A stretch of 39,345 bases of DNA, from assembly GCF_900491935.1 (NCBI RefSeq), contig NZ_UEXK01000004.1:1473971-1513315 (forward strand), in the 5' to 3' direction. The DNA comes from Klenkia terrae (GTDB lineage Bacteria > Actinomycetota > Actinomycetes > Mycobacteriales > Geodermatophilaceae). Below are positions 3,025 through 37,888 of the stretch, one piece after another. A program made the translations under genes and the position numbers. Numbering within the stretch: position 1 is the first letter of the stretch; the number at the start of each line of letters is the position of its first letter. The notes beneath the pieces are model-generated. The model made no database searches and was not told the DNA's origin. It worked only from the letters and a program-made list of their open reading frames with translations.

Positions 3025-3747
3025 ATGTCCGGCAGCACGGGGCAGCGAGCGCCCGAGGCACGACTCCTGGTCGTGGACGACGAGCCCAACATCCGCGAGC
3101 TGCTGTCGGCCAGCCTGCGCTATGCCGGCTTCGAGGTGGCCACCGCGGCCGACGGCCAGCAGGCCCTCGCCGCGGCCGCCCAGTTCCGCCCCGACCTGCT
3201 GGTGCTCGACGTGATGATGCCGGGGCTGGACGGCTTCGGCGTCGTCCGCCGGCTGCGCCAGAACGGGACCCACACCCCGGTGCTGTTCCTGACCGCGCGC
3301 GACGCGGCCGAGGACAAGGTCTCCGGGCTGACGCTGGGCGGCGACGACTACGTCACCAAGCCGTTCAGCCTCGACGAGGTGCTGGCCCGCATCCGCGCGG
3401 TGCTCCGCCGCACCCAGGGCGCCCGGAAGGTGGAGGAGGCCCCGCGGCTGACCTTCGCCGACATCGAGCTCGACGAGGAGTCGCACGAGGTCCTCAAGGC
3501 CGGTGAGCTGATCAGCCTGTCGCCCACGGAGTTCAAGCTGCTGCGCTACCTGATGAGCAACCCGGGCCGGGTGCTGTCCAAGGCGCAGATCCTGGACCAC
3601 GTCTGGAACTACGACTTCAACGGCGAGGCCAACGTCGTGGAGTCCTACATCTCCTACCTGCGCCGCAAGATCGACACCACCGAGCCCCGCCTGCTGCACA
3701 CCCTGCGCGGCGTGGGCTACTCGCTCCGGCTGCCGCGCGGGAGCTGA
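3025..3747 (+). CDS. phoP: Response regulator PhoP (OmpR/PhoB family)
   Basis: This 240-residue regulator has an N-terminal receiver domain with the acidic pair DDE at ~18-20, phospho-acceptor Asp62 in LVLDVMMPGLDGFGV, the Thr/Lys switch residues (LFLTARDAAEDK; DDYVTKPFS), and a C-terminal winged helix containing LSPTEFKLLRYL and NVVESYISYLRRKID. It closely resembles Mycobacterium tuberculosis PhoP over its whole length, including LTLGGDDYVTKPFSL, FADIELDEE and LLHTLRGVGYSLR. The ATG at 3025 has GGGAGG six bases upstream; an in-frame ATG at 2986 lacks a ribosome site. A PhoP-like box in its own promoter suggests autoregulation. phoR follows directly. Confidence 0.93.
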   Translation: MSGSTGQRAPEARLLVVDDEPNIRELLSASLRYAGFEVATAADGQQALAAAAQFRPDLLVLDVMMPGLDGFGVVRRLRQNGTHTPVLFLTARDAAEDKVSGLTLGGDDYVTKPFSLDEVLARIRAVLRRTQGARKVEEAPRLTFADIELDEESHEVLKAGELISLSPTEFKLLRYLMSNPGRVLSKAQILDHVWNYDFNGEANVVESYISYLRRKIDTTEPRLLHTLRGVGYSLRLPRGS

Positions 3748-3748
3748 C

Positions 3749-5278
3749 ATCTCCAGCACCGACACGACGACGTCGCCGACGGGCGGGGAGGACACCTCCC
3801 CGCCCGTCCCGGCGTCCAGGAGGTCCCAGCCCCGGGTCCCGCTGCGGCTGCGGCTGGTCGCGCTGCTGGTCGTGCTCGTCGCGGTGGCGCTGGCGGTCAC
3901 CGGCTACGTGGCCACGTCGCAGCTGCGCCAGTACCTCATCGGGCAGCAGCAGACCCAGCTGCAGGACCAGGTGCGCTCGCTGGGCGAGCGGATCGCCAAC
4001 ACGATCCAGCTGTGCAACACCGACATCCGGTACCCCGGGCCCACCCTGATCGCCTGCGCGAACGACGACACCTCGGCGATCGTCCAGGGCGGGGGCGGGG
4101 ACGGATCGCTCCCCGACGTCTCCGGGATCACGCCGTCCTCCATCGGCTCCTACGACGACGCACCCTTCACCCTGCCCTCGCGCGACGGCACGACGTCCTG
4201 GCTGCTGATCTCCGCCGACCTGACCGACAGCACGGTCATCACGGTCGGCATCGACCTGTCCGACGACCAGCGCATCCTGGCCCGCCTCATCCTGGTGCAG
4301 CTGGTCGTCGGCGCGCTGGTCCTGGTGCTGCTCGGCGTCGCCGGCTACGTGCTGGTGCGCAACTCCCTGCAGCCCCTCGTCGAGGTCGAGCACACCGCGG
4401 CGGCGATCGCGGCCGGTGACCTCTCCCGCCGCGTGCCCGAGGGCGACGACCGCACCGAGGTCGGCCGGCTGGGCCGGGCGCTGAACGGCATGCTCGCCCG
4501 GATCGAGGGGGCCTTCCAGGCGCAGGCCGCCTCCGAGGAGCAGGCCCGCACGTCCGAGGGCCGGATGCGCCGCTTCGTCGCCGACGCCAGCCACGAGCTG
4601 CGCACCCCGCTGACCTCCATCCGCGGGTTCGCCGAGCTCTACCGGCACGGGGCCTCCGGCGGGGCGGGTGGGGACAATCCGGAGACCGGCCGGATGATGG
4701 GCCGGATCGAGGCCGAGGCCACCCGCATGGGCGCCCTGGTCGAGGACCTCCTGCAGCTGGCCCGCCTGGACCAGCACCGCCCGGTGGAGTCGCTGCCCGT
4801 CGACCTGGGCGAGCTGGCCGCCGACGCCGTGCACGACGCCCGTGCCGTGCAGCCCGACCGGTCCGTCGAGCTGGACCTCACCGACTCCCTGACCGACGTC
4901 CCGGTCGTGCTGGGCGACGAGGGCCGGCTGCGGCAGGTCATCGGCAACCTGGTCACCAACGCCCTCACCCACACCCCGCCCGGCACGCCGGTCACCGTGC
5001 GGCTCTCCGAGGAGCCCGGCGACCCGGACGCCGTCACCGTCACCGTCGCCGACCAGGGCCCGGGCATGTCCGCCGAGGACGCCGAGCGGGTGTTCGAGCG
5101 CTTCTACCGGGCCGACGCCTCGCGCACCCGTGCGGCCGGCGGCACCGGCCTGGGCCTGTCGATCGTCTCGTCGCTGGTCGCCGCGCACCACGGCACGGTC
5201 ACGCTGACGACGGCACCCGGCGAGGGGGCCGCCTTCGCCGTCCGGCTGCCCCGGTCGGGTCCGGCCGGTCAGGACTGA
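3749..5278 (+). CDS. phoR: Sensor histidine kinase PhoR, apparently starting at an ATC codon
   Basis: The predicted 509-residue membrane kinase has TM1 at ~34-56, a ~120-residue extracytoplasmic loop, TM2 at ~178-203, HAMP at ~204-257, HisKA with phospho-acceptor His282 in VADASHELRTPLTSI, an HATPase N box (GNLVTNALTHTP), G1 (VADQGPGMS), F box (ERFYRAD) and G2 (GGTGLGLSI). The first ATG/GTG/TTG in frame is the GTG at 3872, which lies inside TM1 and would remove its N-terminal arginine-rich flank. Translating from ATC at 3749 gives (M)SSTDTTTSPTGGED...SRRSQPRVPLRLRL, a typical kinase N-terminus, with CGGGAG five bases upstream and phoP's TGA at 3745-3747. The ATC start is an inference; a CTG start (codons 32-36) or a base error is the alternative. 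It should phosphorylate PhoP. Confidence 0.85.
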   Translation: MSSTDTTTSPTGGEDTSPPVPASRRSQPRVPLRLRLVALLVVLVAVALAVTGYVATSQLRQYLIGQQQTQLQDQVRSLGERIANTIQLCNTDIRYPGPTLIACANDDTSAIVQGGGGDGSLPDVSGITPSSIGSYDDAPFTLPSRDGTTSWLLISADLTDSTVITVGIDLSDDQRILARLILVQLVVGALVLVLLGVAGYVLVRNSLQPLVEVEHTAAAIAAGDLSRRVPEGDDRTEVGRLGRALNGMLARIEGAFQAQAASEEQARTSEGRMRRFVADASHELRTPLTSIRGFAELYRHGASGGAGGDNPETGRMMGRIEAEATRMGALVEDLLQLARLDQHRPVESLPVDLGELAADAVHDARAVQPDRSVELDLTDSLTDVPVVLGDEGRLRQVIGNLVTNALTHTPPGTPVTVRLSEEPGDPDAVTVTVADQGPGMSAEDAERVFERFYRADASRTRAAGGTGLGLSIVSSLVAAHHGTVTLTTAPGEGAAFAVRLPRSGPAGQD

Positions 5279-5290
5279 CCGGCCGCGGGT

Positions 5291-29072: not shown

Positions 29073-29104
29073 ACAGGGCCCCGGCAGCTCTGCCGGGGCC
29101 CTGT
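29073..29104 (-). terminator. Fifteen-bp perfect hairpin after the tetR-exporter operon
   Basis: ACAGGGCCCCGGCAG (29073-29087) pairs perfectly with CTGCCGGGGCCCTGT (29090-29104). It lies 17 bases past the exporter stop (29121, minus) and just upstream of the crotonase gene, so it should separate the two units. Confidence 0.75.
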
Positions 29105-37828: not shown

Positions 37829-37888
37829 CGGTCACCGGGGAGGGATCCGGTCACCGCGTGCCGTGACCGGATCCCTGCCGGGTGACCG
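37829..37888. repeat. 60-bp nested palindrome with GGTCACC elements
   Basis: AGGGATCCGGTCAC (37841-37854) and its exact reverse complement (37863-37876) flank an 8-base loop. An outer pair, CGGTCACC (37829-37836) and GGTGACCG (37881-37888), shares the same dyad centre, with four non-pairing bases between inner and outer arms. GGTCACC or its complement also occurs at 37900-37906, 37929-37935 and 37984-37990. The 276-base intergenic stretch 37761-38036 holds no gene that I can see. Confidence 0.75.

Follow-up and report, generated by a model that had tools for sequence, protein, structure and literature searches.

What is the start codon of phoR in Klenkia terrae? In the window (the whole 39,345-nucleotide stretch of DNA that was analyzed), the stop codon of the upstream gene phoP, TGA at 3745-3747, is followed by a single spacer base, C3748, and then by ATC, a start codon very rarely used by bacteria. 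The phoR frame runs without a stop over 3557-5278, and no ATG, GTG or TTG occurs in it from 3557 up to the GTG at 3872. Between 3557 and 3841, the ATC is the sole ATN or NTG codon of the frame; the next ones are the CTG codons at 3842, 3848 and 3854. A prior sequence-only reading had placed the first canonical codon at GTG 3872, inside the first hydrophobic stretch, and our frame scan agrees. It had also reported neither a start nor a stop back to 3602, which holds and can be extended to 3557, and its placement of the ATC one base past the phoP TGA, with CGGGAG five bases before it, is exact to the base. Initiation at ATC would give a predicted PhoR N-terminus SSTDTTTSPTGGEDTSPP, with or without the initiator Met. 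We consider it likely, from the comparisons described below, that ATC is where translation of phoR begins in this genome and in five sister genomes.

Table 1. Features of the phoP-phoR junction and their positions in the window
Feature	Position	Strand	Remark
phoP, OmpR-type response regulator, 240 aa	3025..3747	+	ATG 3025, GGGAGG upstream
CGGGAG, Shine-Dalgarno-like, within the phoP tail	3738..3743	+	five-base gap to ATC
ATC, proposed phoR initiation codon	3749..3751	+	in frame in 6/9 Klenkia genomes
phoR, membrane sensor histidine kinase, 509 aa counted from ATC	3749..5278	+	HAMP, HisKA, HATPase_c
29-codon PhoR leader, ATC to the Arg preceding VPLR	3749..3835	+	third positions almost without A/T
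Perfect 14-bp hairpin, 3-nt loop, inside the leader	3778..3808	+	13-bp core common to relatives
First GTG of the phoR frame, within the first hydrophobic stretch	3872..3874	+	rejected start

The best solved relative of the regulator is by far Mycobacterium tuberculosis PhoP (3r0j, 346 bits, against 195 bits for the best other regulator, PrrA), hence the name phoR for the kinase. The pair resembles mycobacterial-type PhoP-PhoR systems in that the regulator is nearest to mycobacterial PhoP and the kinase carries HAMP, HisKA and HATPase_c domains. No NCBIfam model scored above its own cut-off among the best 25 of 104 and 84 matches for the two proteins. Membrane helices of PhoR were judged by eye from the sequence. 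A second in-frame ATG of phoP lies further upstream, at 2986. At the other end of the operon, a 10-bp hairpin spans the phoR stop codon (window 5262-5285) and has no terminator-like T run; the operon message may end there.

Start codons in Klenkia and related genera

An ATC in frame with phoR, one or two bases past the phoP stop, is found in six of the nine Klenkia genomes. The junction reads GGGAGCTGACATC in four of these (our genome, G001, G006 and G008), where the spacer is C, and GGGAGCTGACGATC in the other two (G002 and G003), where it is CG. The remaining three genomes read GGGAGCTGAGCCGCCCCCGTG, with a GTG nine bases past the phoP stop, indicating that the phoR start has stayed beside the end of phoP. 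All nine genomes have GGGAG at the CGGGAG site. Inspection of this codon in related genomes had been proposed by the sequence-only reading as a check on the ATC, and the codon came through it in the six genomes. The same reading had considered that a sequencing error could have turned ATG into ATC. Errors of this kind, in sequencing or assembly and from either ATG or GTG, are possible in single genomes; here the in-frame ATC recurs in five other genomes, two of them being the named K. soli DSM 45843 and K. marina DSM 45722 records, and an error is almost certainly not the explanation.

To place these start codons on a phylogeny, we used a tree of PhoP and PhoR comprising eight of the nine Klenkia genomes (G007 was omitted as partial) and five other family members. 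The six ATC genomes form one clade, present in 94% of 200 bootstrap trees and with a support of 91/93 that lies below the star threshold of the tree tool. G005 and G004, which have GTG, branch ahead of this clade, a topology suggesting that ATC probably arose once, out of a GTG-start ancestor. It has lasted through the divergence of the PhoR products to 62-81% identical alignment columns. Two features expected of an ATN start are thus found here: no ATG, GTG or TTG able to serve in this genome, and retention of the codon in relatives, namely in six of nine Klenkia genomes belonging to one clade. Common descent also means that the kept ATC and the coding signature described below are not six independent observations. 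No ATG, GTG or TTG precedes VPLR in four of the six ATC genomes. Counting against ATC, an in-frame GTG lies 28 and 40 bases past the stop in G001 and G006, respectively, and the V of VPLR is itself encoded by GTG in G001, G002, G006 and G008.

We then looked beyond the genus. A family search of 112 genomes (E <= 1e-110) gave a match in 100, and 99 junctions were read, G013 being left out. In 95 of the 99 junctions, the stretch from the last in-frame stop to the PLR anchor contains an in-frame ATG, GTG or TTG; the four without one are all from Klenkia (our genome, G002, G003 and G008), and all 90 non-Klenkia junctions have one, although the first canonical start lies 43 to 156 bases past the stop in some of them. 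The PLR motif precedes the first hydrophobic stretch in every junction read (99/99). The first start overlaps the phoP stop at position -4 in 75 of the 99 junctions (60 GTG, 15 ATG). This usual arrangement raises the question of whether a CTG at -4 (CTGA), in place of the ATGA or GTGA of the family, could be the start in Klenkia. In G002 and G003, CTG ACG ATC is in frame and the CTG could indeed serve; in our genome, G001, G006 and G008, however, a spacer shorter by one base puts the CTG out of the phoR frame, so that this explanation applies to at most two of the six ATC genomes. Parsimony on the tree further indicates that the spacer between stop and ATC was altered by one base at least twice, a change that would break a CTG start at -4 and not an ATC start. 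We regard initiation at this CTG as very unlikely.

The varying spacer also bears on whether PhoR could be made with no initiation at all, by ribosomes that shift frame at the UGA-C stop and extend PhoP. Such an event is favored by the weak stop context UGAC and by the Shine-Dalgarno-like element, which has a parallel ahead of the prfB shift site, as well as by the phoR frame being open across the end of phoP. Four genomes would need a +1 shift and two a +2 (or -1) shift, however, and the three GTG genomes plain readthrough, which makes frameshifting highly improbable.

Of 80 named loci surveyed in Klenkia and other actinobacteria, 40 were readable, and the scan reported a missing start in two, K. 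soli (L055) and a Mycobacterium (L058). The latter was rejected as an anchor artefact, its translation having a Met before IPLR. K. marina (L056) escaped the flag only because the GTG of VPLR was counted as a start. The 40 readable loci thus contain no true start-less phoR besides the two Klenkia loci.

A further feature, seen at junctions of other genera, is an insert like GAGCGGACAGGTGCGTGAGCATCGCAGCGAGG separating phoP from phoR: L140 (G012), L176 (G033), L182 (G047), L174 (G059), L145 (G062) and L170 (G068). It is present more than once in G012 and may be a small dispersed repeat.

Coding signature and hairpin of the leader

If phoR starts at ATC, the leader should look like coding sequence. 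With the hairpin excluded, A/T occupies 55/152, 21/152 and 2/146 of codon positions 1, 2 and 3, respectively, in the six leaders, while the phoR body of our genome has 24%, 50% and 2%. The match with the body is in the third position alone; second positions have 14% A/T in the leaders versus 50% in the body, a low value in keeping with the abundance of Thr, Ser, Pro and Gly in the leader. The Fisher p of 2.7e-12 for this signature overstates the case, as the six genomes are related. Leader lengths vary by whole codons, which is the same fact as the ATC being in frame. Third positions like those of coding sequence argue against starts at 3836, 3842 and 3872, and support the view that the leader is translated in the phoR frame from ATC.

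Under the alternative of a downstream start, at CTG 3842, 3848 or 3854, at GTC 3836 or at GTG 3872, ATC and hairpin would both lie in an untranslated leader. An AGGAGGT at 3818-3824 sits 12 bases ahead of GTC 3836, GTC has a precedent as a start codon in sigR (PMC5472188), and the hairpin is conserved as DNA sequence, all of which would suit such a leader. The third-position signature is nevertheless that of a translated sequence in the phoR frame, and it weakens the downstream CTG start that the sequence-only reading had put forward. K. soli, the nearest relative, has no AGGAGG in its leader, and the PLR motif comes before the first hydrophobic stretch throughout the family. GTG 3872, in addition, would spare only part of that stretch, and was rejected on this ground and for the coding signature of the leader. 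A downstream start thus appears unlikely. As to the AGGAGGT itself, its GGAGGU is paired to AUCUCC at the proposed start in the minimum-energy fold, though not in the centroid fold.

Returning to ATC as the preferred start, the hairpin would lie within the translated leader. The region 3730-3850 has a fold z-score of -4.68. Searched as an exact pattern, the 13-bp core occurs in one place per genome, always this junction, in seven of the nine Klenkia genomes; it is missing from G004 and G007. Counted from the first start-codon base, the hairpin begins 29 to 68 nt downstream. In its core, all seven amino-acid-invariant columns are also codon-invariant, versus 151/297 across the whole of phoR, and perfect inverted repeats of at least 12 bp are found in 12 of the 99 family junctions (six of them Klenkia) versus 2 of 1119 other windows from the same loci. 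Covariation is sparse: 1 of 13 pairs is altered on both sides (in G005), 1 of 78 cells is broken (in G006), and 167 of 500 shuffles reach this level. This is no proof of an RNA structure, and the case for the hairpin is made by conservation and occurrence in a single place. No Rfam element matches it at gathering score, and no terminator-like site with the T run of an intrinsic terminator was detected there. The hairpin may act as a second brake on phoR, through pausing, attenuation or message processing. Its presence beside a GTG start in G005 shows that it is not bound to ATC.

Strong hairpins of other sequences closely follow the phoR start in other genera (G053, G067, G072, G073, G074 and G096), those of G053, G072 and G073 being alike. 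The window has two more 14-bp hairpins, at 29073-29104 and 37841-37876; in contrast to that of the leader, they appear to be placed between likely genes.

IF3 and the comparison with known systems

A link between phoR and initiation factor IF3 is suggested by infC, the gene of IF3. In all nine Klenkia genomes (L204-L212), infC reads GGAGAGGCC-ATC-ACC with GGAGAGG just upstream, and no in-frame ATG, GTG or TTG is found upstream of this codon in any of them; infC of Klenkia thus reads as starting at ATC. The infC start is reported as ATT in E. coli and ATC in Streptomyces, where sigR has a GTC start that is repressed by IF3, affecting the sigma/anti-sigma ratio (PMC5472188). IF3 is described as allowing Watson-Crick pairing alone at the first and second codon bases and excluding weak third-base pairs (PMC10158994), and excess IF3 as reducing re-initiation (PMC2268962).

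From this known biology we infer that phoR initiation would be weak, dependent on IF3 and coupled to phoP. The first and second bases of AUC would be read by fMet-tRNA, with help from the CGGGAG five bases upstream and from ribosomes terminating on phoP; IF3 would disfavor AUC, and the resulting weak initiation would keep PhoR well below PhoP. The ATC of Klenkia infC and the IF3-repressed GTC of Streptomyces sigR make it plausible that IF3 holds the kinase low, and we propose this mechanism tentatively, rating its chances at slightly less than even. Two-component systems usually keep the kinase low relative to the regulator, and ATC may simply be the route of this clade to a low kinase. A further possibility, which we find rather doubtful, is that the ATC shared by PhoR and IF3 makes the kinase:regulator ratio follow the IF3 level (with growth rate, cold or stress), the conserved hairpin beyond the initiating ribosome tuning ribosome passage. 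Were this true, the shared ATC and the hairpin would give a two-component system a translational set-point.

Very few non-canonical start codons have been characterized experimentally (PMC5472188). E. coli N-terminomics reports one ATC among upstream sites (PMC13245402), and 68,906 reconstructed AUG/GUG/UUG starts from 36 genome triplets included two switches to AUU, "AUC" being missing from the main text of that study (PMC5622118). No kinase with an ATC start appears in the titles and abstract openings of the matches listed for literature on non-AUG starts, kinases and IF3, which is weak evidence of absence; the matches listed for ATC start codons concern mainly mitochondrial genes, judging by title. 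Searches on Klenkia start codons, on the AUC initiation codon and on infC with an ATC start codon gave no match in the literature collection searched. The phoR ATC would be an addition to this small known kind of non-canonical starts. A kinase held to ATC across six species would represent a natural case of start-codon choice setting two-component stoichiometry. It also calls for caution in annotation, where PhoR could be cut off within its first hydrophobic stretch.

Three known systems invite comparison. The mycobacterial-type phoP-phoR operon is like that of Klenkia in gene order and in the PhoP protein (346 bits to that of M. tuberculosis); it differs in the phoR start, none of the 90 readable non-Klenkia family junctions being without an in-frame ATG, GTG or TTG before the PLR anchor. 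The infC gene has an ATN start, as does phoR by our reading, and in Klenkia infC too reads as starting at ATC. Unlike infC, however, phoR encodes a membrane kinase, is second in its operon, has its Shine-Dalgarno-like element within the upstream gene and is not expected to form an autoregulatory loop. Streptomyces sigR is likewise part of an actinobacterial two-gene regulatory operon in which one partner has a non-canonical start, kept within the genus. An effect on the ratio of the partners has been shown for sigR and is expected for phoR. The GTC of sigR, known by experiment, lies in the upstream gene, whereas the phoR ATC, proposed by genome comparison, lies in the downstream sensor.
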